Position numbers and translations under genes: made by a program. From contig CATKZK010000007.1 of the NCBI GenBank assembly GCA_949841325.1, forward strand, positions 1-51,171: 51,171 nucleotides of DNA. Direction: 5' to 3'. This document shows positions 5,588 to 50,448 of the stretch, one piece after another. Positions within the stretch are counted from its first letter, which is position 1. Each line of letters opens with the position of its first letter. Under the pieces are notes generated by a model. That model made no database searches and was not told where the DNA came from. It worked only from the letters and a program-made list of their open reading frames with translations. The DNA is from an uncultured Bacilli bacterium. Lineage in GTDB: Bacteria > Bacillota_I > Bacilli_A > RF39 > UBA660.

Positions 5588-7933
5588 CTATAATCCAAAT
5601 AAATTATGTCTCGTTGGACTCATCTTGTCATTCACTTGCCAAAGTGCATAAGCTTTTTGGTCTTCATCTGTTGATCGAATACAACTTCCCGAACCATCTT
5701 TTTCACACTTTGCTTCACTACAGCTCTGTCCAACAACACTTGCTCGTTCAGCCGCCATATACTTTTTGATATAGGGATAATAGGCACATCCACCAATTCC
5801 CCAATCGATATTCCCTTTTGAGTTTCGCAATTCTTTTACCCAATACTTTCCAATATAGGCATATTTCATCATCATATCAGAAGCATTTTCATAAGAAGAA
5901 ACAGTTGCTGCAAACCCTTTAATTCCCTCTTCTAAATTGCGATATTGACTACATACTTTCGTTCCTTTTCCATTATAACAACGGATTCCCCAATAATTAT
6001 TTGAACCATTGCTTATCCCTGGTGAAAAACCTTCGGAAATGGCACGTATAACCACTAATTCGGGATTTACATTATTTGCAACTGAAACATCATATACTTC
6101 TTCTGCATGTCCTACAAATACATTTAAAAATACTTTCATTTCTTTAGAGGAACAGCTATGGTTGTTACAATATGTTCTCATTTTGGAAACAAATTCTGCT
6201 TTAGTTAAAGAAGTTTGATGAACAGAAAAATCTCCTGATGCAAGCTTTGGTCTTGGATTTGATGCACTCATATAGTTTAATACATCTACAGCAAATGAAA
6301 CATCAGCCCCACCTTTACGAAGTTCAAAATGTAAAATATCATCATTGGTTCTTCCCGTATGTCCAACATGTCCAATGACTTGCCCTTGTAAAACAGTATC
6401 TCCTACTGTGATTTCATAGATATCATGTAAGTGAGCATAAACCGTATAATCTCCATTGGTATGAGAAAGAACTATCATATTTCCATAGCCTTCATTACAG
6501 TCATAATCACCAACTGTACAGGAATTTATAATACTTACAACTTCTCCACTATAAACAGCAATGACATTCGTTCCGTTTGGAGCACTAATATCAATTCCAT
6601 AATTGATTTCCTCTTCTTTCGTTACTGGATTTGTTCTCGTTCCAAAATAACTCACAATATTTGTACTCACTGGATCTTTATCTGCAAATAAGACTCCATT
6701 TTTCTTTTCAGTTTCCCTACTTCCAATTGGCCAGTAAAAACTCTTACGTGTCGATTCTTCTTTTGACACTTCTATAAATTCAGACTCTCCACCTGACTCA
6801 TTATAAGAGATATTTAAACCATAGTCATTTAATATATCAATGATATCATCGATTATTCTTTTTCGCACTATCACTATTTGCTCTTCATAATCATCATATA
6901 AGCCCCTTGCTTCTAATGAATCACTACAGACATCATTCGTCATACATTTTACTCCCGCTGGCTCTAAAACAGTCTTCTTAAAACGCTCTTGTAAATGCGC
7001 TTTTTTATCAAAGTAAATATTTTGACTTAAAAAGTCAAAGTAACGATCTGTTGAAACGTGAGGATTATCATCATAAACATATGTCGATTTTTCAGGATAA
7101 TTAGCACCTATATTTTGACAATCTTCATATTTTTCATCTTTTGGCAGTCTTCTTAAAAATCCCATGGTTGCATTTCTTGGAAGTTTTTCATCATGTGCCC
7201 ATTTGCTCGAAAAATATTCCCAAAAGCCATATTCATAACTTGATAAACGATCAGCACATTTGGTCTTTTTAGAATACCCTCTTGCTGGCAAATCTACTAA
7301 TGCCCCTTCCTCACAATATAATCTTTCTGAATTATCTTCTAAAATTTCTTTTTTAGGATTGCCATAAACCCCATAACAACCCGTATTATAGGCAATCATA
7401 TTCTTTATTAACATTTTCAAAGTATCTTTTTCTTCTTCATAATAATTAGCAGTTGTCTCTCCATCTGCGTCATAATTATCTTCTATATTAATTGTGTCCA
7501 TTTCTGACTCATCAATAGCATACGAACCAGAAAAACTACGCCAACTTGCCTTATATTCCTCTCCTGTATCCGTTAAATCTGAAGGCGTCATATCAATAAA
7601 AACCGTTTCAATGATAATATTGTCATTGATATAGAGTCCTTCTTCTTGATATTTGGCAAGTAGTTTATATAATTTTTTATAAAATTTCTCTTGTTGTTTT
7701 AAAATTAAATCTTCACAAGTAGATTTATCCTCAGCATCTTTACAATATCCGCTCCAATATTCTTTATTAGCATCTTTAAAAGTATCCCAATCAAAATCTT
7801 GATATTGAAAAGAAGCTGAAGAGATTTGCAAAGGATGTAAAACACATACAAAAAAAAGAACAATAAAAGAAAACATAAGAATTTTTTTACTTACAACAGA
7901 TATTCTACAGTTTCTCTTTGTTCTTAATTTCAT
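5588..7933 (-). CDS. Exported wall-remodelling protein with degenerate M23 and muramidase-like domains
   Basis: A signal peptide (about 1-40, ending ISSA) is followed by about 350 residues of unassigned, Cys-containing, acidic sequence. A peptidase M23/LytM domain lies at about 420-545 and a lysozyme-like domain at about 600-745. In M23 the first zinc ligand (His of HxGxD) is Asn444. Asp448, the HxH pair His501/His503 and the later His535 are kept, so zinc binding is probably weak and the domain may only bind wall. The C-terminal domain has VNPELVVIRAISEGF with a candidate catalytic Glu, followed by NYWGI, as in glucosaminidase/SLT-type folds. There are many cysteines, unusual for a low-GC Gram-positive, so disulfides are possible. 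The gene sits between virB4 and the VirB8-like genes. The likely role is local wall opening for the channel. Confidence 0.8.
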   Translation of the reverse strand: MKLRTKRNCRISVVSKKILMFSFIVLFFVCVLHPLQISSASFQYQDFDWDTFKDANKEYWSGYCKDAEDKSTCEDLILKQQEKFYKKLYKLLAKYQEEGLYINDNIIIETVFIDMTPSDLTDTGEEYKASWRSFSGSYAIDESEMDTINIEDNYDADGETTANYYEEEKDTLKMLIKNMIAYNTGCYGVYGNPKKEILEDNSERLYCEEGALVDLPARGYSKKTKCADRLSSYEYGFWEYFSSKWAHDEKLPRNATMGFLRRLPKDEKYEDCQNIGANYPEKSTYVYDDNPHVSTDRYFDFLSQNIYFDKKAHLQERFKKTVLEPAGVKCMTNDVCSDSLEARGLYDDYEEQIVIVRKRIIDDIIDILNDYGLNISYNESGGESEFIEVSKEESTRKSFYWPIGSRETEKKNGVLFADKDPVSTNIVSYFGTRTNPVTKEEEINYGIDISAPNGTNVIAVYSGEVVSIINSCTVGDYDCNEGYGNMIVLSHTNGDYTVYAHLHDIYEITVGDTVLQGQVIGHVGHTGRTNDDILHFELRKGGADVSFAVDVLNYMSASNPRPKLASGDFSVHQTSLTKAEFVSKMRTYCNNHSCSSKEMKVFLNVFVGHAEEVYDVSVANNVNPELVVIRAISEGFSPGISNGSNNYWGIRCYNGKGTKVCSQYRNLEEGIKGFAATVSSYENASDMMMKYAYIGKYWVKELRNSKGNIDWGIGGCAYYPYIKKYMAAERASVVGQSCSEAKCEKDGSGSCIRSTDEDQKAYALWQVNDKMSPTRHNLFGL

Positions 7934-21434: not shown

Positions 21435-24350
21435 CTAATTCTTCATGCAAGCTTTATTTTCCTTTGTATAAAGGATACTTACCTTTAGATAATATTCATT
21501 ATTATCCTCTGTTACTTGACTTCCAATTAATGTGTCTACAACATCATTATCAAACCATTTCCATAAAATTGTCAACTGAGTAGAATCTCCATCTTCTAAG
21601 CGAATGGCATCACTACCTAAGTCAATAGTATTTTCTGTATAGAAACGCTTCAATTTAGAAGTGTAATTAATTGGCGTATATTTGGTGTTCGCATCTTGAT
21701 TTAGTATTGTATATCCAGAGCGATTTCGCAAGAAGAATTTATCATTGGCTTCTCTTGTTGTCTGTCTAATCATATATCCTAGATTAACACATTCTGTTTC
21801 TCTAAGACAAATTGTATCTTCTTCAAGTTTTATTCCTGTAATCGTAAGAACTTGTCCAGTATCATTTGTAAAGTTCATCTCTTGTGCTCCACTTAATCCA
21901 GGATAGATTAAATTTGAAACATTTAACTCTTCTTCTGATTTCGCATTTTTAAATAAATCTAAATTTTCAAATACGACAAGGCCTTCTTCTTTTACAATCT
22001 CTAACTGACTGTCATCAACTGTTTCATCAAAGATTGCATATAAAGTTAGATTTCCCTTTATTTCAACTTTATCATCTAATGCATAAGATGTTCCTTTGCC
22101 ATCAGCTTGTGTATTCCATGTTGCTTTATAATATAGACATTCATCAGGTTTAGCTGGTTTATAAGCTTTATATAGGCTTAAATCTAATACTTCACCTGGT
22201 TTCATCACTAACTCTTTATTCGCTTGTAACGAATTGATAAATCCACCATTCGTTTTAGCATTTAAAAGAACATTATATTCAGCAACAATTGTCGCTTTAA
22301 AGCTTACCTCTTTTATGACTTTATCAAATGCAGATCCTGTGATCTTAATATCAGCGCTTCCTGTATCTTTTAAAGCGTTAAGAGAAAGTACGAAAGACTC
22401 ACTACCATCAGCATTCACTTTTTTCGATACTGAAACACCTACAACACTTGGATCTGAACTTGTAATGATGATTTCTCCCTTTGTGTCAATTCCGTTTGTA
22501 TTCTTAGCAGTCAATTTAATTCCGTCAGCAATCGAAGTAACATCAAAGTCATCTCCTAAAATGTTAGTATTGAAAATAACATTTCTTGATTTATTATCAT
22601 CTGTATAAGTAATATCATAATTCTTACAAACATCACTTTCGCAAGTTGTAAGATAATATGGAACCGTTCCAACTGTAACTTTTGCACTCGTCTTATGTCC
22701 ATTATAATCAAGTGTAATCGTATGAGTTGCACCTACATCATCTTTTGTCGGTGTAATATTAACGATATCTTGTTCAACAGTTACAGAACCTTTAAATGTC
22801 CCCTTATCTACCGTTACATTATAATTTCCACTTAATTCTTCCCATACACCAGAATCAATCGTCTTTTCATAGATTTTATAGCCAAGTCCCTTTGTTCCAT
22901 CCTCTACCTGAATAGATACAGATTTTTGGTTAAATTCAATTTTTCTTTCTGGTCTATAAATATTTACTGTATATTCTGCTGCATTTCCATCAGCTGAAGT
23001 AACTGTCAATTTTACTGTATTCTTTCCCTCTTTTAAATCGATATTATTTAATACAGAAGAAACAGAAGCACTATCTGATGGGAACGCTTTTAATTCTCCA
23101 ATAGAAGTTGTATCATAATCTACTTTTAAAGTATATGTTCCATCTTTTTCAAGTGTTAATTCTTGATTGTCAGCAACGACTTTATCTACAGATACATCAC
23201 CATCTAATTCCTTTTTAATCACAACTGTATAGATTTTTTCTGATTTATCTTCAGCAATTACTTTTATTTGAGTCTCTGTTATATTTGATGTAAGATTAAC
23301 GTTTTTTGTGTACTCAATTGTTGCTTTGCTATCTTCTGGAAGTGCTGTAATGGTTATCGCATTAACATTCTTTCCTACCGTAATTTCATATTTGGTATCG
23401 CTAACTTTTTTAACAGTTCCTGTTGATGAGGTTAACGAAGCAAGATTTTTATTATTTGATTTATTCGGATCTGTCGGTTTCTCTGATGGATTTGTCGGAG
23501 TCGTCGGTTTCTCTGTTGGTTCGGTTGGTTTTTGAGTCACCTTTTTAGTTGTCGTCGTCGTTTTCTTCGTTGTTGTTTTCTTCGTCTTCTTCGTCGTCTT
23601 TGTTGTATTAGTGCTTTGATTTGTACTCTTATCTTTAATATTAAGTGTATATTCAGTTGTATAAACTTTATTATTTGCAGTAACTTCAAGTGTAACTGTA
23701 ACTTTTCCAGCCTTTTTAGCTGTAACTGTCAAAACGCCATCTTTAGCTTCAGCTGATGCTATACTGTCATCACTTACTGTCACTTTTACATCATCTTTAA
23801 GTCCCTTCAATTCATATGGGATTTTTTTCGTTTTACCGTAACTTAGAACAATGTTACCACTTGTACTATCTAAGATGATACCATTAGTTCCTTCTGTAAT
23901 CTTAAGTCTCGTCTCTGCTCTATAGAGAATATCATTTTTCTCTGTTTCTGCAAAAATTTTAACAGTTCCCACTGCCTTAGGATAGATGACTACATAATCC
24001 TTTTCAGCAATACAAGTTGCAATTGTCGCATCACTTGTCGTACAGTGTACATCATCACCTTTGATATTTTTAACAGTATAACTAATCTTATACCCTGTAT
24101 CATCCAAAGTAATTTCACTTTCTTGTGTTTGGAATATTAAATTTGTATTTGTAACAACATTCTTATCCTTTGAATCTTTATTAAAAATATAATCAATAGA
24201 CCCAAATAAATTTCCAATACGTCCCCAAAATGAGGAAGTACAGCTCGTAATCAATAATAAAATAATAATGATGATAATAATAATACAAATTGTAAGTTTT
24301 GTTTTTGTATGGTTATTTTCTTCTTCATTCTTTTGAATGTTTTTTTTCAT
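21435..24350 (-). CDS. Large Ig-like surface protein with TasA-like C-terminal domain
   Basis: A short cytoplasmic N-terminus and a hydrophobic segment (about 19-37) ending ITSC suggest either a membrane anchor or a lipobox. Bacterial Ig-like (Big_2-type) modules follow, then a Thr/Lys/Pro linker (about 245-300), cadherin-like beta-sandwich modules (about 300-460), more Ig-like repeats and a Listeria-Bacteroides-type repeat (about 740-790, WNTQADGKGTSYALDD). The last 150 residues resemble the TasA-like neighbour: a WKWFDND strand parallels the WEWPFNA strand there. It could cap or anchor the fibre at the membrane (inference). It is 971 residues long and has a GGGGAGGTG site. Confidence 0.8.
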   Translation of the reverse strand: MKKNIQKNEEENNHTKTKLTICIIIIIIIILLLITSCTSSFWGRIGNLFGSIDYIFNKDSKDKNVVTNTNLIFQTQESEITLDDTGYKISYTVKNIKGDDVHCTTSDATIATCIAEKDYVVIYPKAVGTVKIFAETEKNDILYRAETRLKITEGTNGIILDSTSGNIVLSYGKTKKIPYELKGLKDDVKVTVSDDSIASAEAKDGVLTVTAKKAGKVTVTLEVTANNKVYTTEYTLNIKDKSTNQSTNTTKTTKKTKKTTTKKTTTTTKKVTQKPTEPTEKPTTPTNPSEKPTDPNKSNNKNLASLTSSTGTVKKVSDTKYEITVGKNVNAITITALPEDSKATIEYTKNVNLTSNITETQIKVIAEDKSEKIYTVVIKKELDGDVSVDKVVADNQELTLEKDGTYTLKVDYDTTSIGELKAFPSDSASVSSVLNNIDLKEGKNTVKLTVTSADGNAAEYTVNIYRPERKIEFNQKSVSIQVEDGTKGLGYKIYEKTIDSGVWEELSGNYNVTVDKGTFKGSVTVEQDIVNITPTKDDVGATHTITLDYNGHKTSAKVTVGTVPYYLTTCESDVCKNYDITYTDDNKSRNVIFNTNILGDDFDVTSIADGIKLTAKNTNGIDTKGEIIITSSDPSVVGVSVSKKVNADGSESFVLSLNALKDTGSADIKITGSAFDKVIKEVSFKATIVAEYNVLLNAKTNGGFINSLQANKELVMKPGEVLDLSLYKAYKPAKPDECLYYKATWNTQADGKGTSYALDDKVEIKGNLTLYAIFDETVDDSQLEIVKEEGLVVFENLDLFKNAKSEEELNVSNLIYPGLSGAQEMNFTNDTGQVLTITGIKLEEDTICLRETECVNLGYMIRQTTREANDKFFLRNRSGYTILNQDANTKYTPINYTSKLKRFYTENTIDLGSDAIRLEDGDSTQLTILWKWFDNDVVDTLIGSQVTEDNNEYYLKVSILYTKENKACMKN

Positions 24351-28836: not shown

Positions 28837-30033
28837 TCAATTTTTTATAAAAATTTGATGCGTCTGTTTTTTCTCTCGCTCATATTTCGCGATCACTTCG
28901 GCATTTGTTACATTATAATGTCTTATAAATTCTTTTTCTCCTAGGAACAATGTTCTACTGCTACAATCTCCACAAAAACTATAAAATCTTGCGAGTGTCA
29001 ATTTTGCGCTTTGCATCAGGTTCTTAGGATTTTTAAAAAGAAACTCTAAGCTATTTGTATACACCCCTACATCTAACTTCTCGCGAATATTTTCACAACT
29101 CATCGAAAAATATCCTGGGAATCGTACAAGCATAGAAATTGCCTCTTCTTCATCATAATATTCTGTTAAGATATCTTTTTTTCTTTTTAGTGTTTCATAA
29201 TCAATGACGATAACTCCTACAGAAGTTTCCATAATCGTTTTAATCTGTTCTTCATCAAATCCTAATTTTTTAAAATTAGTTGAAAAATCATAGATTGTCA
29301 TTGAAGAACTGTTTAAAGTATTTGGATTACTAAATAGACTCTTCTTAAACTTCTCTTTATCGACACTTAACGCATTCGCTACTTCAAAGAGAGCAAATAC
29401 CCCCTCAAATTGAAAGTTTGCTCGCCTTTTCATTTTCATTCTTAATACTTCCGCTAATTTTATACGGTATGGTGCTATTACTTTTTCTACGCGCCGATAA
29501 AAGGCTTCATCATATTCTAAAATCTTGTAGTTAAATTCTAAACAAGCGGAAATTTCTTCCCTGCTTAAACCTATGCCAATTAAATAGATTAAATTCTTTT
29601 TTATACGTTCAGGTTCTTCAAATATAATAGGAACATTTTCCTTAAACAACTTTTCAATTCGTTTTTTCGATATGCCAAGACCTACTAAAATTTTAAGAAT
29701 ACCTTCCATATCAACATGATATTCTCTGGCGCTTGTTTTTGCCGTTTCTTTTATTCTCTCAAAACCATTTGGACGATATTTACTATAATAGACAGGCTGA
29801 TTAACAGCAGTCATCGCTTTTGGATACAGACAAGCAAAATCGCGAATTTGTTCCTTTGTATACTGTAAGGATTGTAAATACTCTTCAAAAATGGGAAAAT
29901 TCTTTTCCACTTTGTCAATTGTTTCGCTTAACACATTCCATCGTCTTAAAAGTAATATAATTTGTTCATCTGTAAAGTCTAAACCACGAAATATCGTGAA
30001 AACTTGGTTAACACATTCATTACTTATGAACAT
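28837..30033 (-). CDS. mTERF-like helical-repeat protein
   Basis: This soluble 398-residue protein appears fully helical, with no signal peptide or membrane segment. It is built of repeats of about 32-36 residues with the mTERF pattern: a Leu-Gly-(Phe/Ile/Leu)-(S/D)-x-(E/K)-x-Ile first helix, a hydrophobic second helix, then an F/Y-P or similar turn. Clear units start at LDFTDEQI (about 18), GLGISKKRI (about 118), GIGLSREEI (about 152) and KLGFDEEQI (about 259); further units (RFPGYF, KNPKNL) continue to about 350. mTERF proteins bind nucleic acid in mitochondria and chloroplasts. A bacterial role (transcription termination, RNA or DNA binding) is inference. The gene has its own promoter, with a hairpin covering the ribosome-binding site. 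Confidence 0.65.
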   Translation of the reverse strand: MFISNECVNQVFTIFRGLDFTDEQIILLLRRWNVLSETIDKVEKNFPIFEEYLQSLQYTKEQIRDFACLYPKAMTAVNQPVYYSKYRPNGFERIKETAKTSAREYHVDMEGILKILVGLGISKKRIEKLFKENVPIIFEEPERIKKNLIYLIGIGLSREEISACLEFNYKILEYDEAFYRRVEKVIAPYRIKLAEVLRMKMKRRANFQFEGVFALFEVANALSVDKEKFKKSLFSNPNTLNSSSMTIYDFSTNFKKLGFDEEQIKTIMETSVGVIVIDYETLKRKKDILTEYYDEEEAISMLVRFPGYFSMSCENIREKLDVGVYTNSLEFLFKNPKNLMQSAKLTLARFYSFCGDCSSRTLFLGEKEFIRHYNVTNAEVIAKYEREKKQTHQIFIKN

Positions 30034-30095: not shown

Positions 30096-31607
30096 TTATT
30101 TTAGATTTGTTACCACAGTATCATTTGGATTATTTCGTGGAATTACTCGTTTCACTGTTTTTACATTAGAACCCGAAGGCACTACTTGTTTTTTCACCAC
30201 TTTCACTTGAGGAGAAGCCTTTTCCACCATATTTACAGGTGCAGCTGCTGGCACTGGATTAACAGGCGATGGGTTCGTTGCTGGTTTTACATCCATCACT
30301 TTTGTTGGCGTTACAAGTCCTCGTCCCGTACTTACCACACTCTCTCCACCTACTTGAATTTGTGGAGAAGCCATTTTTGCTTCTCTGTTTTCTTCTGCTT
30401 GCTCACGTATTTTCGCAGAGGATGCCGCTTCTAATTTTTTCTTTGTATGATTTCTTGAATAAAAGATAAATCCTAAAAAGCTTATGGTCAATACTCCAAT
30501 AACAGCTAATAAGATTGTCGAAGAATAACTTCTTTTGATATGTATTTTATATTCAGTTGCCGCTAAATCTCCATAAGTTACCGTAACATAAGCTGTATTG
30601 TTTCCCTTACTTAAAACTTTTAATCCTGCTCCTGTAATGACAACATCTTCACTATAAGATTCAGCCATAATATAAATTTCTTTTACAGAACTTGGAACGG
30701 TTACTGTATACTCTTTTACATCTGGTTTAAAATCAAGGTCATAATCTACGACTTTTAAGTTTGTAAGTAAAGTATCATAAACACCAGATCCATCTGGTTT
30801 TGTAATGATAAGTTGAACTGTAGCTGTTCGATTTGTATTATCTTTTAAAACAAGTTCAACGGCATTCTTTCCTTCTGCTAAATTTCGTTTTCCTGTTCCA
30901 ATAATTGTAATACCCTCAGCCGCAGTCGCTTCAATCATTACGCTTTCTGTTTCGGCATCTACTGTTGCATAGTAAATACCTCCTTCATTCGTTACCGTAA
31001 AGTCATCGACTTTTAAACTGGCAAGCGTAAGTGGTATTGGCGGTTCAGTCGTTGGTTCAGTTGTTGGCTCTGTTGTCGGATTTGTCGCTTGCGTATTATT
31101 GGTATACTTCGTTGTTGTTTTTTTCGCCGTTGTCGTTGTGCTCTTTGTTGTAGTCGGTTTTGTCGTTGCCGCATTTACTTTGAATGATGCGCTTCTACCT
31201 GATGCACTAAATTCATTTAAGTCATTATCCCCAGCGATGATATTACTTACGTTGAAAGTGACACTTCCAGCTTTTGTTCCTTTTATTTCAAAGGTCGCAA
31301 TTGTAAAAGAATTTCTATGCGCATCTCCATAAAGGGAAAAAGAATTTCCACTGGCTTGTCCCATCCATCCACTACCATTACTCATATTTACAAAACTTGC
31401 TGCACCACTTGAACCTTGAACAGAAAAATTTCCACGAACAGAAATAATTTCTCCGCCTGATGCAGTTCCTGTGACAGTACATTTTGTCGTATTATTTATC
31501 GTGACGTCACTACACCTTACATTGACACTCATTGAAGTCGCATGCACACTTATCGGCAGTACAAAACTCGTCAAGATAAACAACAGTATAAAGTTTCTCT
31601 TTCTCAT
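30096..31607 (-). CDS. Membrane-anchored protein with cohesin-like head and cadherin-like modules
   Basis: Signal peptide (1-23, ending VHA). A beta-sandwich of about 125 residues follows, resembling a cohesin/carbohydrate-binding fold (strands around TVTGTASGGEIISVRGNF and SFTIATFEIKGTKAGSVTF). Next come a Thr/Pro repeat linker (about 150-195), two cadherin-like beta-sandwich modules (about 197-365), a membrane helix (about 370-392) and a 110-residue basic cytoplasmic tail. It is the third gene of an operon whose first gene encodes a dockerin protein, so the head is a likely dockerin receptor at the surface. The gap to the preceding gene is 1 nt. The cohesin call is from fold-level resemblance and needs a profile search. 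Confidence 0.7.
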   Translation of the reverse strand: MRKRNFILLFILTSFVLPISVHATSMSVNVRCSDVTINNTTKCTVTGTASGGEIISVRGNFSVQGSSGAASFVNMSNGSGWMGQASGNSFSLYGDAHRNSFTIATFEIKGTKAGSVTFNVSNIIAGDNDLNEFSASGRSASFKVNAATTKPTTTKSTTTTAKKTTTKYTNNTQATNPTTEPTTEPTTEPPIPLTLASLKVDDFTVTNEGGIYYATVDAETESVMIEATAAEGITIIGTGKRNLAEGKNAVELVLKDNTNRTATVQLIITKPDGSGVYDTLLTNLKVVDYDLDFKPDVKEYTVTVPSSVKEIYIMAESYSEDVVITGAGLKVLSKGNNTAYVTVTYGDLAATEYKIHIKRSYSSTILLAVIGVLTISFLGFIFYSRNHTKKKLEAASSAKIREQAEENREAKMASPQIQVGGESVVSTGRGLVTPTKVMDVKPATNPSPVNPVPAAAPVNMVEKASPQVKVVKKQVVPSGSNVKTVKRVIPRNNPNDTVVTNLK

Positions 31608-31608
31608 A

Positions 31609-32139
31609 TCACTTTCCTACTTTCTTTATTCTTTTTTGTATAATGAATATTCCTACTACAACTATAATACCACATATCAAATAAAAATATAGACTTCTTT
31701 CATGATTTTTATCATTTTTTTCCAAATCATTGACAGATTGTTCTTTATGATCGATAATTACATGATCCTGTAAATCTTTATCTCCAAATAGCAACCATGT
31801 CGTCTTAATGTCATCAGAATTAAATTTTTTACTTGTCTTCAAGGTAATCGTTCCTACTTCAAAATCTCCTACTTTATTATCTTCTGTATAGAGAACAACT
31901 TTATTCTCATATTCTCCTCCCTGCCAAATGGGATCAATCTGAAAATCAATCTTTTGCAATGAAGAAGGAATCGCAAATTGATATTCTAATGCACAGATTT
32001 CATAAGAGGAATACCCCTTTACTGCACATGTGAATTCTTCGTTTTTATTTACCTCTTTTGGACACTCTAGCCAAATACTTTCAGCTAAAACAGAACTTGG
32101 AGAAAGAAGAAAGAAGATAAGCACAATAGTTCTTTTCAT
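31609..32139 (-). CDS. Small membrane-anchored cohesin-like protein
   Basis: A signal peptide (1-19, ending VLA), a single beta-sandwich domain (about 20-135) with a Cys pair near 24 and 38, a short charged linker and a C-terminal membrane helix (about 148-168) with a basic tail. Strand spacing and VGTITLKTSKKF recall cohesin/CBM-like folds and the head of the following protein (LYGD, TIATFEIKGTKAG). It lies 9 nt after the dockerin gene and 1 nt before the larger anchor gene, so the three are translated as a set. The likely role is a second, shorter docking receptor (inference). Confidence 0.65.
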   Translation of the reverse strand: MKRTIVLIFFLLSPSSVLAESIWLECPKEVNKNEEFTCAVKGYSSYEICALEYQFAIPSSLQKIDFQIDPIWQGGEYENKVVLYTEDNKVGDFEVGTITLKTSKKFNSDDIKTTWLLFGDKDLQDHVIIDHKEQSVNDLEKNDKNHERSLYFYLICGIIVVVGIFIIQKRIKKVGK

Positions 32140-32148
32140 TCTTTCCTC

Positions 32149-35100
32149 TTAAATTTGTTGTCTTTTGCCAATTGAAAATTGGTATAAAGCAGCAACATCT
32201 GTTCCTGTAATATTTTGTACTTTTCGTATGCGACCAGCTTTCAATTGATTCGCATCTAAGCGTCTTTTTCCTATTGTATATTGATAAAGCGCTCCAACAT
32301 CTGTTCCTGTAATACTTCCATCCCCATTGATGTCTCCAATGACTATTATTTTATATGTTTCATTTCCATTCTTTATACTCATATTGGTTCCAATCACTCC
32401 AACAATTGATGTAATATTTTGTCCCTTACTATCAAAAATTTGATAATTCGTTTGAAGTCCAAAAATGTGTTTTAAGAATGTCGAAGCAAGAAGTTTTGTC
32501 GTCGTCATGCGATTGACATATATCGTCATATCACTATAGTTCATTTCATAGAGATCAGAAGTTAAATGTTCTAATGCTGTAATACGAATCTCTTTTTCGA
32601 TTTCCCCATTAGATACACGAAGTGAAGTCGTTCCCGCACCAACAATCTCTAATGTATTGTTTTTTATTTGAGCAATACTTCCTGATCCAACTGAGAAATT
32701 GAAATTTTGATTTGTCGCATTCTTTGGCTCTACTTGATAGCTAATGGTTCTAGTCTGTCCTTGATAGAATGTCGCATCCCCATTTTGAACAGTGCCATTT
32801 AAAAGGATTGATACACTTGTTGCCTTAATGTAGGCTTCTACTTTAGCTTCTTTTTTATCATATGGAAGTGAAAATAATGCAATCGCCACTTCATAGTCTC
32901 CTTTTTCTAAAGCGCCCGATTCAAAGTCAACAACATAGACTTTCTTCGCATCATCATAAGTAATGCCATCCTTTATTACTGAAACCACTTTACCATCTTT
33001 CATTAATAGAACTGAATAATCTGAACTACTAGCTTCTTTATAATCACTCACAAATTCATAGTGTCCTACAAATCCATCTTTATCATAAAATACATTCTGA
33101 CTATTATAACTAATCTTCTGTTTCAAAGTAGACTTTTCTGTTAACGTAATCTTATATTTCAAAGCATCTACTGTAAAGTCTAGGGCATTAGATAGATTCT
33201 TCTCTCCTACCTCATCTACTGTAAACATACTAATCTTATACTCTCCTACTGGTGACACAAAAGGAAGTATATCTAAACGATAAGTATCTGTATAATCAAT
33301 ACTTGACTCTTTTGTCACTTTAAATTGTGCTGTTACATCAACACCAAAGGCATTTTCAACTAGTGGCTTCAACTCTTCAGTACCAACAAAAGTAGTATCA
33401 ACATCAAAGGTATAATATTGTCCATCTACATCGCCATAAATACGGTCAAAAGTAGTAAAAAGATTAGAAAGGATTATCTCTTTATAATTTCCAAGCATCT
33501 TAACTATAATCTCTTTATCACTGCTTGTTTTCATATCGTCTTCCTTATAACTTAAGACAATCTTTAAATCTCCTGCATCTACTTGATTCGTTCCTTTATA
33601 GTAAACATCTACATAGTCATTAAATACATTAATATCAAAGGAAGAAGTAACGTCTATTCCTGTTGCATTAAACACTTTCGCGCTCATTTTTGAACGATCT
33701 AAATCATAACCACTTGAATAATAAACACGATACGTTCCTGCCTTATTTTTATGGAGTAGTTTATCCAATGTGTCACTCAACATTTCTACGCGATCAATTT
33801 GGAAACTCTTATAGAAGTTTGCCACCGTAAACGTCTTTGTCTTTTTCAATTCTCTTCCAAAATACGTATAACTTACTTCAATAGTATACGTTCCTGGAAA
33901 CGTTAATTCTAGTTGTTCTAAGACGAGATCAAAAGAATTAGGTCCATTTAAATTATTAACAGCAGATATCTTAAACGAAGAAGTAACTTCTTGTTTTCTT
34001 GCATTATAAACTTTCGTTTGTTTAGCAAAATTATGTTTTTCGGATAAGACATCTTGCCCATTAATTCCATTGGCGACATTCTCAATTTCCTCTGTATCTA
34101 CTTGGAATATTACTTTTCCTTTAGAATCTGGAAGCAAAGGATCTGGTTCTATCTTTGGTTCTCCCAATGTATAATTAAAATACTCTGCATTCATAGTAAA
34201 ATCTAGGGAACGTTCAATAACTTCATCTCCTGTATCACAAGAGATAGAAATGCGATAGCCTTGTACTAAAGCTTCAGCTACACTAGGATTATACGTAATA
34301 TCGAGAATATGATCTTTTAGATATTTTGATTCATCATAAACGAATATATTTTTATAATTTCCTCCACCATTAGAATCGGTAATGGAAACTAACGTATCTT
34401 CATAGGACATACCATACACTCTTACAGGAAGGTAAAGATGCCCCACTTTATTTTTATATAAACCATCTGCTGTCTTATCTTTTATATCAGAATAAATCGT
34501 CGCCTCTTTAAGAACAATATCTGCATAATTCCCCTTTACTTCAATGTCAAACATTTTAACATCTCTTGTCGTATAGTATAAAACTAAAGCATAATGTCCT
34601 TTTTCAAGCTTTTGTCCATCTACTTCATGATAATTTAGCTTTAATTGTTGATTAGAAGCAATCGTATTCTCCTCTGTAAAATAACGATTATAGTTTGCTC
34701 CTGATGTAAAATCACAAGTACCATTGTCGTTATTTAAGACATCTAAACATTCTTTATTGATTACCCAATGAAGGGTATCTTTTCTTTGTGTATTAACCTC
34801 AATATCAATACCTGTATCTTGCAAGTTTTGATAGAAACCTTTGACATCCAAAACTTCATTTGTCTCTTCATCATAGAATTTTCCTCTAGGTTCAATTTTA
34901 TCAACAGTCCAGTCGAATAAAGTCTTTAAAGAAGGCATATCGAAGTAACGGACTTTTTCATCTTTGAAAACAACACCTAATCGATAATCGCCATCTAATT
35001 CAATAATCGCTTCACGATCTAGAGAAATTTTAATTTGTCCTTTATGAGTCAAGTGTTCCACGGTGTCATCATAATCTTCACTTTGAGCATCCCATGTATC

Positions 35101-38100
35101 TGTAATAGATTTTGTCATTTTATAAGAAACTCCTGGAGTTGAAACATCTACCCATTGATGTTCTTTTGTACTATATCGTTCAAGAATATATTGAAAATCA
35201 TCCAATTCATCTGTATCAATATATTGAGTCTCAATATCTTTTAAAATATACATTTCATCTTCTGTTGCATATGGATAATCATTTTCTACATTATATTCAT
35301 AAGCCGCTTTAAGAACTTCAAAAGTTAAAGTTGTCTGTGTGGCCTCTTCTCCCTCTTCTTGATAGTCAAATGTTAAATCATAAAGTGCCATATCAGCCTG
35401 ATCTTTTACATTTGTTAAAGAGAAAACATAACGTATGATACCCTCTTCTTTATAATACGTTTCATCTACCTCGGTATTATAAGTAAATAGCACCACTCCA
35501 TCACGATTTTTAAATTCGTGTTTTTCGGTATCGACTTGAAGAGAAGTATCTGAAAGTCCCGAAATCTTTTGAACAAGACTAGGAACAATTTTATCAGGAT
35601 CATTAATATAATACCCTTTCATATTAATCTTTGCTGTAAGTACTTGATTTGGATAAAATTCTAACGGATCAGGTTCCGTATCTTCTACAAACAAACCATA
35701 GTATTTTCCTAACACTTCAAACTCTTGACTACTACTTGCTGTCTGTTTTCTATTTTCATAAGAAATAGTAGCTCGATATTTTCCACTTGGAATCGTTCCT
35801 TTTGTAATAAGAGATAACACATATTGTTCTCCATCTAATTGATTTGAATCACGATTTAAGTTATCTTCTTTCTTAAAATAACTTGAAGCATCTACCCATT
35901 CATCTGCATCTTCATCATAATACTCTATTTTAGAGTCTATCCCTGCATATGTATAGATATCGATTAAATCAGCACGAATAGTAGCTTTACTTTCGATATT
36001 TGTATACATTCTTTTTTTATCATTTCCTGTATTTGATAATTCTGGCAATGAAGTTTCAATTTCATAAACAGGTTCAACATAAGTAATGCTTGTTCTATGA
36101 ATATTTTGCATCCACATATCAGGATAATTTTCACGACTAATAACGGCATCTTCTTCTTTATTGACATATCCTACACCAATATAGTTATCATAAGCAACAT
36201 AAACATAGTATTGACCAGGATCAATTTCTGATTTAGGTGTAATTGTAATCGGATTTGTAATATTTGTCTCATCATCCGTAATTTCAATATCAAATAGATT
36301 TGTAATCTCATGACCTTCAATCGGTTTTCCATCGCGTTCCTTTACGATATAACTTCCCTTTAGACGTCCCATAATGATATTTCCTGATGCATCAAATAAG
36401 AAACGTGTTACAACATAAGCATACATATCAGGATACTTCGTTCTAAATTCTTGTAAAAGCATTTGTTTTTGTGCACCTGCTTGATCTACATAGGTAACAA
36501 GCATATCTCCACCTGTTGCTGGGGTAAAACTTTTGATATGCAAATCAAAATTATCTGTTGTTTTTATTAGATTTCCTGATGCATCATATTGATATTTTAA
36601 AACATCATCTGCGACAGTAGCGTACTTACTTTTGAACACTTCAAAAGCTTCATCTATTACTTCTTGTGTCTCATCTCCAATTGTCACTTTATAGCTAATG
36701 AGTGCATCTTTATATTTCAAAATCTCGATATCATAATTGACTTGTTCATAAAAGAATAGATTTCCTGCCTCATCCAAATCTGCCATTTTATCATAAATAG
36801 AGACATCAATAAGTCTTGGATTGATATACGTATAATCTAACCCTGCTTTTTGTAAATAAAGTGCGATTTCCCATTTTATCTTCTTATTTGCTGGCACCTC
36901 AGAGGAATATCCTTGCTCAACTTGTGCATTTAAATAGTAATCGACCTCAGCATCATAAAGGTGGAAATCAACTCGACATTCACTTACATCAGGGAATTTC
37001 AATGAAATATAATAATCTCCAATATACTTTTCATCTGTATTGTCATAGATAAGTTTTATCGTCATTTCTGAATCGGTATGACTATATTCAATCGAAAAAC
37101 CTTCCTCTTCTGTTAAAGTAGTTCCATCTTCTGACATAATTGCATATTTTAAAGAGTTAAAGTCGTCTTCAGAGATATCTTCATAATGATAGACAAACGT
37201 TATTTCTCCACCACTTAACGCCAAGATATTTTGATTTTTTGAAAGCAATAATTTATTTGGTATCGTTCTTTGTCCTCGTTCAAAACGGATAAGATTTCCT
37301 GATGCATCTGTATTATACTTTTCATCTGCTATAAAAGCATCATATACTTTTTTATAAGCAGAGACAAAAGCACTTTTTGTTACAGTCGTCAGATTATTTT
37401 GTAAATCATAATAACTTACTTGAGCATCTGTTGCCTTTACAATCGCACCTTCATCAAAACGATAAAGAATCGCACCGTTTTCATCAGCTGCTATAGAAGT
37501 AACATCGACTGCTGTATATACAGATTTGAAATTTTCAATCGTATCTGTATGTGTCGTTCCTTCTAATATATAGGTAATATGTGTGGCTGTTTTCTTTAGA
37601 ATTTGTAATTCATATGAGATGATTAAAGGTGTTCGATCATATCGATGAGATTCAATACTTAGTCTTTCAAACACTAACTGACGATTTCCAATCGTAAAAT
37701 CAAATGTATACGTAATAATTCCACATGCACCACTAGATGACCCATAACTTATTGTCACTTTATAATCTCCTGCTGGTGGACGATTAGTTCTTGATCCTGT
37801 CTTATTTTTAATAACGATGGTATCTTCTGATCGTGTAATGTTAAAACGTGAAGTATAATTTGTATTTCCTTTTTTTATCGCAATTTGATAATCTTGAATA
37901 GAAGGAATATTAAAGATATCTTTTAATGTCATATGCCATTCATTTTCTACATTTGCTGGATTGCCCAAATTATGAGAAATTTGTTGCCAATCCACATCAA
38001 AATGGTAGTAATCTCCAAGCATTGTAAACGAAATCATTTTAGTAATACCATTTGCACGAACTTGAACTGAATAAGTTCCTGCAGTATATCCCTGTTCACT

Positions 38101-38718
38101 TTTAAGTTCTAAAGTGATGTCCATAGAAGTACCATCAAACCAACCTTTGTTGATATCAAATTGATGCGTTACTTCACTTCCATTTTTGTATACAGAAACG
38201 GACAAAGCTTCTGCTTCATCAATAGCGATATTACGAATATCATAAATAGAAAAGAAAACAGATCCCAATCTATTCGTATAAAGTGACTCTAGCCCGCCTT
38301 CTCCATTAATAATAGGTTCACTTACTAAAAAATCAGTAGTTTCTTCTATAAAACCACCATCAAAATCATTATAATCTGCAAGCGTCATAGGACTTAAGAC
38401 ATTTTTAGATAACCATTTATTACTCGTCTTACTCACCTTAACAAACCCGTTCTCTTCACAATAAGCCCTAACAGCAGAATTGCCGCTCACGTTTTCTACA
38501 TCTTTATAACGTATACTAGGTCCCTCATAAAGAGTAGTATCCTCATTCACATAATAAAGACTGCCATCACCTGTATAACAGGTGCCTGATAGTTTCCCTT
38601 TATTTGTAAGAAGTCGAGCCTGATTTTTAAGCTCGTATGGAATATTCATTTGTACAACAACTGCAAAAAATGCAGCAAAGAAAAATATTGGTATAATGCG
38701 CGCGATAACCTTTTTCAT
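32149..38718 (-). CDS. Giant secreted multi-Ig protein with C-terminal dockerin
   Basis: At 2189 residues it is the largest gene here. N-terminal signal/membrane segment (about 5-27), an SH3-like domain (about 45-110), then about ten Ig-like modules, each ending in a GxYxVxIxY strand and a following FxV-YY boundary. Four ~33-residue inserts ending DxxGN(L/I) occur in the first third. A Big_2-like module is at about 1985-2060. The last 62 residues are a type I dockerin: repeat 1 GDINGDGSITGTDVGALYQY keeps the calcium ligands, while repeat 2 (NITGTDVAALYQF) has lost the first-loop aspartates. No catalytic domain is recognised. It is co-transcribed with two cohesin-like anchors, so it is probably a surface filament or adhesin tethered non-covalently. 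Confidence 0.85.
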   Translation of the reverse strand: MKKVIARIIPIFFFAAFFAVVVQMNIPYELKNQARLLTNKGKLSGTCYTGDGSLYYVNEDTTLYEGPSIRYKDVENVSGNSAVRAYCEENGFVKVSKTSNKWLSKNVLSPMTLADYNDFDGGFIEETTDFLVSEPIINGEGGLESLYTNRLGSVFFSIYDIRNIAIDEAEALSVSVYKNGSEVTHQFDINKGWFDGTSMDITLELKSEQGYTAGTYSVQVRANGITKMISFTMLGDYYHFDVDWQQISHNLGNPANVENEWHMTLKDIFNIPSIQDYQIAIKKGNTNYTSRFNITRSEDTIVIKNKTGSRTNRPPAGDYKVTISYGSSSGACGIITYTFDFTIGNRQLVFERLSIESHRYDRTPLIISYELQILKKTATHITYILEGTTHTDTIENFKSVYTAVDVTSIAADENGAILYRFDEGAIVKATDAQVSYYDLQNNLTTVTKSAFVSAYKKVYDAFIADEKYNTDASGNLIRFERGQRTIPNKLLLSKNQNILALSGGEITFVYHYEDISEDDFNSLKYAIMSEDGTTLTEEEGFSIEYSHTDSEMTIKLIYDNTDEKYIGDYYISLKFPDVSECRVDFHLYDAEVDYYLNAQVEQGYSSEVPANKKIKWEIALYLQKAGLDYTYINPRLIDVSIYDKMADLDEAGNLFFYEQVNYDIEILKYKDALISYKVTIGDETQEVIDEAFEVFKSKYATVADDVLKYQYDASGNLIKTTDNFDLHIKSFTPATGGDMLVTYVDQAGAQKQMLLQEFRTKYPDMYAYVVTRFLFDASGNIIMGRLKGSYIVKERDGKPIEGHEITNLFDIEITDDETNITNPITITPKSEIDPGQYYVYVAYDNYIGVGYVNKEEDAVISRENYPDMWMQNIHRTSITYVEPVYEIETSLPELSNTGNDKKRMYTNIESKATIRADLIDIYTYAGIDSKIEYYDEDADEWVDASSYFKKEDNLNRDSNQLDGEQYVLSLITKGTIPSGKYRATISYENRKQTASSSQEFEVLGKYYGLFVEDTEPDPLEFYPNQVLTAKINMKGYYINDPDKIVPSLVQKISGLSDTSLQVDTEKHEFKNRDGVVLFTYNTEVDETYYKEEGIIRYVFSLTNVKDQADMALYDLTFDYQEEGEEATQTTLTFEVLKAAYEYNVENDYPYATEDEMYILKDIETQYIDTDELDDFQYILERYSTKEHQWVDVSTPGVSYKMTKSITDTWDAQSEDYDDTVEHLTHKGQIKISLDREAIIELDGDYRLGVVFKDEKVRYFDMPSLKTLFDWTVDKIEPRGKFYDEETNEVLDVKGFYQNLQDTGIDIEVNTQRKDTLHWVINKECLDVLNNDNGTCDFTSGANYNRYFTEENTIASNQQLKLNYHEVDGQKLEKGHYALVLYYTTRDVKMFDIEVKGNYADIVLKEATIYSDIKDKTADGLYKNKVGHLYLPVRVYGMSYEDTLVSITDSNGGGNYKNIFVYDESKYLKDHILDITYNPSVAEALVQGYRISISCDTGDEVIERSLDFTMNAEYFNYTLGEPKIEPDPLLPDSKGKVIFQVDTEEIENVANGINGQDVLSEKHNFAKQTKVYNARKQEVTSSFKISAVNNLNGPNSFDLVLEQLELTFPGTYTIEVSYTYFGRELKKTKTFTVANFYKSFQIDRVEMLSDTLDKLLHKNKAGTYRVYYSSGYDLDRSKMSAKVFNATGIDVTSSFDINVFNDYVDVYYKGTNQVDAGDLKIVLSYKEDDMKTSSDKEIIVKMLGNYKEIILSNLFTTFDRIYGDVDGQYYTFDVDTTFVGTEELKPLVENAFGVDVTAQFKVTKESSIDYTDTYRLDILPFVSPVGEYKISMFTVDEVGEKNLSNALDFTVDALKYKITLTEKSTLKQKISYNSQNVFYDKDGFVGHYEFVSDYKEASSSDYSVLLMKDGKVVSVIKDGITYDDAKKVYVVDFESGALEKGDYEVAIALFSLPYDKKEAKVEAYIKATSVSILLNGTVQNGDATFYQGQTRTISYQVEPKNATNQNFNFSVGSGSIAQIKNNTLEIVGAGTTSLRVSNGEIEKEIRITALEHLTSDLYEMNYSDMTIYVNRMTTTKLLASTFLKHIFGLQTNYQIFDSKGQNITSIVGVIGTNMSIKNGNETYKIIVIGDINGDGSITGTDVGALYQYTIGKRRLDANQLKAGRIRKVQNITGTDVAALYQFSIGKRQQI

Positions 38719-38805
38719 TTTGTACCCTCCTATAGAGAATTATAGCATTGAAGCCTATTTAAGTAAATACAATAGTTGGCAATTTTCCCTATTATTTTAC
38801 CCCAA

Positions 38806-40125: not shown

Positions 40126-41865
40126 TTATCCCTCTAACTTATTTCCATTTTTACTTGCTTCTAATAATCGTTTATGAATACCTGGTTCAATAATATTAAT
40201 CGAATTAATGGCATATTCTAAACTACTCTTAAAATTTCCTTTAAAAAAATCTCTCTCAGCCTTAAAAAGTCCCGAGTCAATCGTTTTATTCATAGCTCGA
40301 TAACGATTTCCATAGACAATCGCATTTTCCGCCATGGAAGCTGTTTTCACAACTTCTATAGAAGTATTATAAACTTTGAGTACAAGATCACGTGCTGTAT
40401 CTACACGTGTATTTAACGTTTTAATTGAAATTGGTTGTTTTTCTAATTCAATCACTAAATTTCTCAAAGCTTCGTTCGCTTCCTCTAATTCTACATAATA
40501 GTTTTTAGGAACAATCGGCAACTTAAAGGTATTCATATGTTCCTTTGCTTGATGAATAATACTTTTGATTTCATCTAATTGTTCACGAGCACGAATCTCA
40601 TCTTCTTTAAGAGAACCTAAACTCCTTAACGTATAATCGAGTTTTTCTTCCGCTTTTACAAGACGAGAATTAATTGACTCCATTTCTTTGCTTAACCGTG
40701 TATAAGCTGTCTTTTTACTGCGATATTCAAACATGACTTCATCATAAAGTTGTTGACAACTCTCCACCTCTTTATCAAGTTCGCTTATAATTTTTACATC
40801 ATCATCTGTCAAATCATAACTGTATTTAATATCATCAATTTTTTTCGAGATATTGCCAATAATCTTCTTTAACTTTTTACATTTCAAAACAACACTACGA
40901 ATGTAATCATCAAAAAATTTCTTAGCAATTTTCTCTTTATCAAAATCTGCGTATAAACGATCAAAATAATCCATAATCGTTTTAAGTTCAAAGATAGAAT
41001 CCTCTAAATTTAATACATTCAATCGATCAAATATGTCTGCCACTTTCTTTTCAGATTCACTGATATTATAATCAATCTGCAAGTAATCGAGATTATATCC
41101 TTCTTGCAGCATATGATCACTGATTTTTTTTATCTCACTTATACGACTTGGAATCATACTTTTCCCCATCATAATAATTGAAGGTGCTTCCTCTATGACA
41201 ATTCTTAAATTTCCAATCGTATCATCTAATGCTTTGACAATTTTCCCCACTTCAGAATAAACATTACTTTCCATTGCCATTTCAAAAGCTGAAAAAAGTT
41301 TATCCACATTTTCAAATTGAAGTTCTAAAGGAATTTGGATAAGAGAATAATCTTCTTTATTGTTATTATTATATTTTAAGAAAATTGTTCGATAATCGGT
41401 TTTTAACTTTGTCACAATTTCGCGATTTTTTTGTTCCGACAAAGTAATTTCTTTAATATCTTCTAATAGTTTTTGAGCTTTACTCTTTATGATATAAATA
41501 TCAAAATCAAGCTTTGCAAGATGACGATTTGCCTCTTTTAAATGACGTAGGCGAAACATTGTATCGGCTTCTATTAAAGCATTTGTAATTTTAGGAACAT
41601 CTACATCTTTTAATTCTTTAAAAATCGTTTTCCAATAATTATATTTATCTTCTAAATCTTTGTTATTGATAAGGGATTCTACTTTATTAAGCTCAGAAAG
41701 TATAGACCCACTAATAATAAGATTTTTATTGCGTTCAAGCTCTACTAAGTTGGACATATACTGTTTTTTCAAACTGCGAATCACGAGAAAAACAGCCGTT
41801 AAAACGACAATCAATGTAATGGCTGCGTAAAAACATGTTAACATCAAAATCAATTGTTCGCTCAT
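40126..41865 (-). CDS. ezrA: EzrA, septation ring regulator
   Basis: A membrane-bound regulator that binds FtsZ and limits extra Z rings. One N-terminal membrane helix (about 7-28) is followed by 540 residues of helical spectrin-like coiled coil. The segment after the helix (ISGSILSELNKVESLINN, then a YWKTIFKEL stretch) is typical of EzrA. At 579 residues it is normal for the family (about 560-575). It is the first gene of a two-gene operon with the cysteine desulfurase, an order conserved in Bacilli that supports the call. Confidence 0.9.
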   Translation of the reverse strand: MSEQLILMLTCFYAAITLIVVLTAVFLVIRSLKKQYMSNLVELERNKNLIISGSILSELNKVESLINNKDLEDKYNYWKTIFKELKDVDVPKITNALIEADTMFRLRHLKEANRHLAKLDFDIYIIKSKAQKLLEDIKEITLSEQKNREIVTKLKTDYRTIFLKYNNNNKEDYSLIQIPLELQFENVDKLFSAFEMAMESNVYSEVGKIVKALDDTIGNLRIVIEEAPSIIMMGKSMIPSRISEIKKISDHMLQEGYNLDYLQIDYNISESEKKVADIFDRLNVLNLEDSIFELKTIMDYFDRLYADFDKEKIAKKFFDDYIRSVVLKCKKLKKIIGNISKKIDDIKYSYDLTDDDVKIISELDKEVESCQQLYDEVMFEYRSKKTAYTRLSKEMESINSRLVKAEEKLDYTLRSLGSLKEDEIRAREQLDEIKSIIHQAKEHMNTFKLPIVPKNYYVELEEANEALRNLVIELEKQPISIKTLNTRVDTARDLVLKVYNTSIEVVKTASMAENAIVYGNRYRAMNKTIDSGLFKAERDFFKGNFKSSLEYAINSINIIEPGIHKRLLEASKNGNKLEG

Positions 41866-49432: not shown

Positions 49433-50389
49433 CTATCGTAAACCTAATGTTTTTTCATTAGATTCTACTTCTAATTCTTTTTGTAATGTCATTACTCCAT
49501 AAAGAATAAATCTTTCACTTCCACCTGCGTAATTTCCACCACAAGTTACTAATCCTATAATTTTATCTCCATAATGGATTTCTACTGGACTTTCAAAAGT
49601 CGAATTATCAATTAGATTTTGAATGTATGCATCATATTCTATTTCACTAATGAAATCTGGTGTATAAATATACTCAGTTTCTATATCTACAATATTTCCT
49701 GCAAAGAAATCAATCTTATAAATATCACCATTCTCGCCATATAAAACAGCATAAGGATACTTGTCAAAATAAGCTTGAGACTTATAATTAACGATTGGAG
49801 CAAACATCGTACCATCTCCACGCATGTTATGGCCATAGATGAATGTTACGTCACTTAACTCTTCCATTTCATATTCAAAATCATTATTTCGATAATCTAT
49901 AAAAAGTGTTCCTCGTTTAGATTCTTCTCCAGCAAAATTATGATCCGAATAATACTCATTATCAGTTCCTTGAACAACTCGATGATTAATATCAGTTCCA
50001 TCAATTTGTAACCAAGCTGTATAATCTTCATTGATTTCCTTATTTTTTTCACAATTTGGATTTCCGAATTCATATCCCATATCGCTTAGTTCGGTAGAAG
50101 TTCTTAAAGTTTCAATTTCCTCTTCTGCATATTCCTCTACTTCTTGACTCACAATATCCTCTTCATTATTATGTCTTCTAAACTCTTCTGGAATATCCTC
50201 TGCAATAATGACAACATCTTGTAGCTCATCATCTGTTGTAGAAAAAAACTCTTTCACAGTTTTATTTTGTTCTATATAACCTTTAAGAGGACGAAACAAA
50301 CTTAATACAGTCAATGGCGTTACAATAGTAAGTCCAATTAATGTTTTTGTAAACTTTTTAAAACGTGAGTGTTTCCCCTTTTTATTCAC
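49433..50389 (-). CDS. srtB: Class B sortase
   Basis: A membrane transpeptidase that attaches proteins to the wall. It has an N-terminal membrane helix (about 14-32), an acidic linker (about 50-105) and a sortase B domain (about 110-305). The catalytic triad is His187 (IYGHN), Cys283 (LVTCGG) and Arg293 (SERFILYG); TLFIDYRNN is a class B signature. I chose the GTG at 50387-50389, because GGGGGAG is 6 nt before it and the resulting N-terminus is basic; the longer ORF would include the site. The substrate is not identified in the window. A perfect consensus promoter precedes it. Confidence 0.93.
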   Translation of the reverse strand: MNKKGKHSRFKKFTKTLIGLTIVTPLTVLSLFRPLKGYIEQNKTVKEFFSTTDDELQDVVIIAEDIPEEFRRHNNEEDIVSQEVEEYAEEEIETLRTSTELSDMGYEFGNPNCEKNKEINEDYTAWLQIDGTDINHRVVQGTDNEYYSDHNFAGEESKRGTLFIDYRNNDFEYEMEELSDVTFIYGHNMRGDGTMFAPIVNYKSQAYFDKYPYAVLYGENGDIYKIDFFAGNIVDIETEYIYTPDFISEIEYDAYIQNLIDNSTFESPVEIHYGDKIIGLVTCGGNYAGGSERFILYGVMTLQKELEVESNEKTLGLR

Positions 50390-50448
50390 AGTATCTCCCC
50401 CTTTAAATTCTCTATAAGTTCTCACAATTCACCAAACTTATGTGGCGT

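Follow-up and report, generated by a model that had tools for sequence, protein, structure and literature searches.

A putative non-cellulosomal cohesin–dockerin tether for a giant surface protein in an uncultured gut Bacilli bacterium

The stretch of DNA analysed here (the window) comprises the 51,171 nt of contig CATKZK010000007.1 (assembly GCA_949841325.1), contig 7 in the genome (1.34 Mb, 93% complete) of an uncultured RF39 Bacilli bacterium. Three minus-strand genes within it, spaced by ≤10 nt, encode a 2189-aa giant protein with a C-terminal dockerin, a 176-aa small membrane anchor and a 503-aa large membrane anchor (open reading frame (ORF) list; Table 1). We consider it probable that these genes specify a non-cellulosomal cohesin–dockerin surface tether, the giant being docked to membrane cohesins, as one of several privately matched sets. 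An earlier note, made from the sequence alone, had placed two single-pass membrane proteins after the giant, at gaps of 9 nt (giant to small anchor) and 1 nt (small to large anchor); the ORFs agree exactly, and hydropathy gives each anchor an N-terminal hydrophobic stretch and a single C-terminal membrane stretch. The three genes are presumably co-transcribed. No convincing terminator was found between them, and a candidate promoter and a Shine-Dalgarno sequence precede the giant gene, although in the promoter scan as a whole candidate sites were no richer than in shuffled sequence.

The giant–small–large order is kept in two genomes of the same genus (G002 and G006) and in one of another genus (G081), while G005 holds the giant and the large anchor only. 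Three loci (L116, L117 and L121) show, as in the window, one dockerin cargo followed by two anchors.

Table 1. Features of the three-gene locus, with positions in the window.
Feature	Position (nt)	Strand	Basis
Giant surface or secreted protein, 2189 aa, C-terminal dockerin	32149..38718	-	ORF; orthologues 28–37% identity, same genus
Small membrane anchor, 176 aa	31609..32139	-	ORF; orthologues in G002, G006, G081
Large membrane anchor, 503 aa	30096..31607	-	ORF; orthologues 40–46% identity
Candidate promoter TTTACT-17-TATAAT with TG (extended -10), just 5′ of giant gene	38739..38767	-	
Shine-Dalgarno GGAGGG before giant gene	38730-38725	-	
Giant: N-terminal hydrophobic stretch, residues 1–28 (signal peptide or uncleaved membrane anchor)	38635..38718	-	Hydropathy maximum 2.63; without clear A-x-A site
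Giant: SH3-like region, residues 62–97, possible cell-wall binding	38428..38535	-	Weak Pfam SH3_3, E 0.077; best orthologue 0.0026
Giant: Big_2-like immunoglobulin (Ig) domain, residues 1981–2024	32647..32778	-	Pfam Big_2 in 5/5 orthologues, best E 1.4e-5
Giant: small module N-terminal to dockerin, residues 2045–2120	32359..32586	-	Orthologue conservation; high-confidence model
Giant: type I dockerin, residues 2128–2189	32152..32337	-	Pfam Dockerin_1; Foldseek 2ccl_B TM (template modelling score) 0.88
Giant: intact calcium loop DINGDGSITGTD of dockerin, residues 2129–2140	32299..32334	-	Ligand table
Small anchor: predicted cohesin head, residues 17–130	31750..32091	-	VIA-align Z 12.8 to 2VO8; profile match
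Small anchor: membrane helix, residues 147–172	31624..31701	-	Hydropathy
Large anchor: predicted cohesin head, residues 23–147	31167..31541	-	VIA-align Z 16.7; large-anchor profile match to contig 14 cohesin
Large anchor: Thr/Pro-rich linker, residues 148–192	31032..31166	-	Sequence; low pLDDT (predicted local distance difference test) 149–186
Large anchor: two cadherin-like beta domains, ~193–359	30531..31031	-	PF12733 at 281–359, second stretch; modelled strands
Large anchor: membrane helix, residues 360–385	30453..30530	-	Hydropathy
Large anchor: predicted cytoplasmic tail, ~118 residues, conserved motifs	30099..30452	-	Orthologue alignment

The dockerin of the giant (PF00404) scored 18.9 bits (E 0.0018, residues 2128–2176) in a protein scan, under the Pfam cut-off of 22.9, and 23.7 bits, over the cut-off, in a whole-genome search; its model lies within 0.7 Å, over 57 columns, of the solved Clostridium thermocellum dockerin 2ccl_B, bearing out the type I dockerin that the earlier note had placed at the end of the giant. 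Two 22-residue calcium-loop–helix repeats are present near the terminus, of which the second keeps its helix without calcium ligands: loop 1 reads DNDSD and loop 2 RRVND, and calcium ligands are not found in both loops as they are in canonical type I dockerins. Loop 2 is degenerate in all six orthologues compared, and the giant's dockerin is a degenerate, non-canonical variant. Its two recognition segments are nevertheless more alike within a protein than between proteins (mean identity 0.44 versus 0.21), the true pairing being the best of 720 permutations, and residues 10–11 vary in concert between the halves (GT/GT in the window, LG/LG in G002, FT/FT in G005). This helix match within the protein persists though loop 2 is lost, and the pattern suggests that selection has acted on a pair of similar binding faces, of the kind known from dual-mode dockerins, despite the single calcium site.

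No recognised enzyme domain or sorting signal was found in the giant. To call it a filament, as the earlier note did, is a guess from its length and Ig-like repeats; it may act as a long fibre at the surface or across the wall. Giants with a C-terminal dockerin also occur in relatives: G001 has one of 4816 aa (L090 4841-19291) and one of 2303 aa (L091 425-7336), near three cohesin genes, and G045 has a frame of ~7120 aa (L093).

Scans with Pfam Cohesin (PF00963) and NCBIfam returned no cohesin match for either window head, neither sequence passing the curated Pfam cut-off, and a phmmer search of both anchors against PDB sequences gave nothing meaningful; one small-head orthologue had a sub-threshold Pfam Cohesin match (E 0.0081). 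The identity of the heads therefore rests on folds and profiles. A cohesin-head hidden Markov model (HMM), built from 28 Pfam-positive heads of which 27 came from the same bacterial family, gave 15.6 bits for the large head (its orthologues up to 29.4) and 13.1 bits for the small head (29.9 for an orthologue), with 8.4 bits for the best shuffle. The comparison with cohesin profiles put forward in the earlier note thus came out negative with the Pfam model and positive with the family-built one. Profile–profile alignment to cohesin heads extended over 113 and 101 columns for the large and small heads, respectively (probability 87% and 74%), and the large-anchor profile picked up, within this genome, the contig 14 cohesin that Pfam recognises (head positions 1–147, E 1.5e-8).

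Structure prediction (AlphaFold2) pointed the same way. The small head was folded fused to the dockerin, as the natural in-frame read-through of the stop codon; a longer read-through that took in the large head as well had small-head relatives placed on the large head in its alignment, so that only the dockerin–small-anchor fusion was folded. The small-head model matched the cohesin 2VO8 with Z 12.8 (2.4 Å over 114 residues; best non-cohesin Z 8.8) and the large-head model did so with Z 16.7 (1.9 Å over 123 residues), all matches to rank 31 being cohesins. Both predicted models have the cohesin beta-sandwich fold, and the earlier proposal of cohesin-like heads withstood comparison with other folds. 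Since MAFFT stacks the two heads on each other with a common Cys pair and Trp, they are probably paralogues. Profiles, fold models, the contig 14 link and the paralogue alignment together argue that both heads are cohesins all the same.

In the small anchor a short spacer joins the head to the membrane helix, whereas the large anchor interposes a linker and two cadherin-like domains, so that ‘two receptors of different reach’ was a fair description. Motifs in the large-anchor tail (around GxSVV..GR..VTPT) are kept in four orthologues, which suggests an intracellular partner. No relatives of the large anchor were found in viral contigs. On contig 5 of this genome an orphan of large-anchor plan (L154 3241-4869, minus strand), with no dockerin gene beside it, combines a divergent Cys-bearing head, cadherin-like domains, a membrane helix and a long Gln-rich tail. 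In other genera, window-type heads at L114, L124, L133 and L136 end in NPxTG-like sorting signals rather than a plain membrane helix, and the same socket is therefore attached in two ways. This genome also encodes sortases: a sortase-like protein just under the Pfam cut-off lies in the window (49433-50425, minus strand), and there are three more elsewhere.

Adjacency of dockerin and head is widespread in the family. Window-type heads occur in many of its genera and, when 296 genomes sampled from the class were searched at E 1e-6, turned up in this family only; the head gene lies directly 3′ of a dockerin gene in about 14/31 of their loci. In the family sample, a head gene lies within 25 nt 3′ on the same strand at 27 of the 30 strongest dockerin loci, and the genes after those dockerins start with a signal peptide and head and, where complete, end in a membrane anchor. 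Dockerin distance correlated with adjacent-head distance across 49 pairs, with a Mantel r of 0.764; none of 5000 random permutations exceeded 0.239. When heads were swapped within genomes only, which holds species relatedness fixed, 2/2048 assignments reached the observed r, the true one included. Dockerins of the ‘LYQ’ class, to which the window's belongs, were paired with window-type heads in 15/15 cases.

Cargo varies. On contig 14 of the same genome a dockerin is carried by an SH3 and glucosaminidase-like autolysin, which phmmer relates to autolysin E (4pi7) at E 5e-5 and which has no Pfam catalytic match; a cohesin of another class lies beside this dockerin. Cargo in relatives includes papain-family proteases and a phosphodiester glycosidase. 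The earlier picture of a minimal system without enzymes accordingly holds at the locus and fails for the genome. Because the same genome and its relatives pair dockerins with other cargo beside their own heads, the evidence supports the locus as one of several private dockerin–cohesin pairs, not an isolated enzyme-free curiosity, and this repeated plug-beside-socket layout suggests a general means, other than the cellulosome, of keeping proteins at the cell surface. A further arrangement is seen at L126 763-8381, where three dockerin proteins accompany one anchor and one of them (310 aa) also has a window-type head; it is possibly a chain-forming adaptor.

Several observations weigh against a tether between the giant and the two anchors, besides the missing Pfam match of the heads. 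Linked genes co-diverge by descent, and the class correlation therefore shows lasting partnership or joint inheritance, not contact. The fused dockerin–small-anchor model had a predicted template modelling score (pTM) of 0.48, without a readable interface. There are more heads than dockerins in this genome (at least four cohesin-type heads, two dockerins). Besides the two in the window, its cohesin-like heads lie on contigs 14, 45 and 5. In other genomes, roughly one in two window-type heads lacks a dockerin gene immediately 5′ of it.

The tether nonetheless remains the reading that we judge probable, and operon conservation together with the matching of dockerin and head classes supports the giant-to-membrane link seen by the earlier note. 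It builds on gene order, the dockerin, the predicted cohesin fold of both heads, conservation and class matching. As we envisage it, the three genes would be transcribed together and the Ig-rich giant exported, after which its C-terminal dockerin would plug non-covalently into the cohesin head of either downstream-encoded membrane protein. The small anchor would hold its head ~20–25 residues above the membrane; the large anchor would lift its own on the Thr/Pro linker and two cadherin-like domains, with the conserved tail in the cytoplasm. Across the family, matched dockerin–anchor sets would attach autolysin-like enzymes, papain-type proteases and giants to the surface. Physical docking, stoichiometry and exposure of the giant–anchor complex are parts of this model that we infer. 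A wider proposal, to which we give an even chance, is that in this genome-reduced gut Bacilli family orthogonal private dockerin–cohesin couples are a general means of membrane attachment, complementing or partly replacing sortase anchoring, with cargo on different plugs and the large-anchor tail linking the giant to the cytoplasm.

Alternatives differ in how well they survive. The giant may be membrane-inserted at its N-terminus too, because it has a strong hydrophobic stretch there but no obvious site for signal peptidase, and the orthologues are likewise ambiguous; the dockerin would then close an arch on the same cell or link laterally to neighbouring anchors, instead of tying down a free fibre. 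An AVFA-like site in one giant orthologue tells against such insertion, the weak SH3-like region fits wall binding equally well, and we regard this as possible but unlikely. Less likely again is that the heads, though true cohesins, serve other dockerin cargo (such as the contig 14 autolysin) or other ligands while the giant docks to a different cohesin: the surplus of heads over dockerins, and the several heads elsewhere without a neighbouring dockerin, would fit, but giant and heads are linked in operons in four genomes, the dockerin class matches that of the adjacent head, and the contig 14 dockerin already has a cohesin of another class beside it. A larger branched, cellulosome-like assembly of which the set would form an arm, with adaptors joining several cargoes, seems improbable; relatives do encode proteins with both head and dockerin (548 aa at L122, 310 aa at L126) and frames with both Pfam cohesin and dockerin (G018, G036, G020 and G025), but no tandem-cohesin or two-module protein was found in this genome, where both Pfam-level cohesins sit alone. 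Chance Ig-like resemblance in ordinary adhesin or membrane proteins without cohesin–dockerin function, as the failed Pfam matches and the frequent likeness of bacterial Ig domains might suggest, is very improbable and was rejected on the fold ranking of the heads, cohesins filling nearly all top matches (even for the small head, well ahead of the best other domain), and profile links and conserved operons speak against it as well.

Other features of the window bear on its surroundings. The septation-ring regulator EzrA (40126-41865, minus strand, 312 bits) is encoded two genes from the giant, and in G005 and G006 the giant operon adjoins mraY- and ftsW-like genes (L086, L085); given these neighbours, the tether may be connected with cell division or wall growth. 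A 398-aa protein (28837-30033, minus strand) scores 48 bits (E 9e-13) against the mTERF family, known mostly from eukaryotic organelles. A conjugation-type region (228-2738, 5588-7933 and 21435-24350, minus strand) includes a TraG/VirD4-like coupling protein, an M23 peptidase protein and a 971-aa protein with a cadherin-like domain.

Cohesin–dockerin pairs are best known as the joints by which cellulosomes are put together. A search of the genome, at its 93% completeness, did not find the cellulosomal combination of a tandem-cohesin scaffoldin with several dockerin-bearing plant-polysaccharide enzymes, and no such enzyme adjoins the three genes in the window; a cellulosome was rejected on the lack of tandem cohesins in the genome. 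Two dockerin proteins and two isolated Pfam-level cohesins were found instead, a cohesin and a dockerin in one genome outside a cellulosome, in keeping with the earlier view that this is not a standard cellulosome. The closest fold match for both heads is to the non-cellulosomal cohesins of C. perfringens (GH33, GH84C; PDB 2VO8, 2JH2, 2W1N), where, as proposed here, a single cohesin and a single dockerin are used pairwise outside cellulosomes (PMC12997984). Those cohesins belong to secreted glycosidases (PDB titles), whereas here they are placed on membrane anchors beside the cargo gene, and the giant cargo is without a recognised enzyme domain.

Surface cohesins that hold long partners have precedents. 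In the mucinolysome of the gut bacterium Limousia, a wall-anchored protein with one cohesin, cSca5, is predicted to capture long scaffoldins by their C-terminal dockerins, in a sortase-anchored, multi-enzyme system of tandem-cohesin scaffoldins and dockerin-bearing mucin-degrading enzymes (PMC12997984); here, in contrast, the search brought up no scaffoldin, and next to each cargo lies an anchor of its own. Classical anchoring scaffoldins such as SdbA of C. thermocellum likewise use a surface cohesin to hold a large dockerin-tailed protein (PMC5817068), but SdbA combines a type II cohesin with SLH (S-layer homology) anchoring and a cellulase scaffold, whereas in the window the best match is to C. 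perfringens-like and type I-like cohesins, the anchor is a membrane helix and a cellulase scaffold is lacking. Sortase-anchored LPXTG-type proteins of Gram-positives also hold large Ig-rich proteins at the surface; the giant, without a sorting signal, would instead be held non-covalently through a separate receptor.

A limited literature search found no published description of cohesin–dockerin pairs in this lineage, and a genomic survey of cellulosome-displaying bacteria excluded metagenome-derived genomes (PMC11557425). If binding holds, the layout would represent a general surface-display route in a reduced-genome lineage, and would offer dozens of naturally insulated plug–socket pairs, encoded side by side, for studies of specificity evolution and for protein engineering. 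Set beside the known systems, the same joint appears here, in uncultured gut Bacilli with tiny genomes, as a device that attaches one cargo from one locus, repeated across many genera with varied cargo and matched specificity classes; what appears to be new is that, family-wide, a single cargo is placed next to a membrane socket of its own, in the present case a giant cargo without a recognised enzyme domain beside two sockets.

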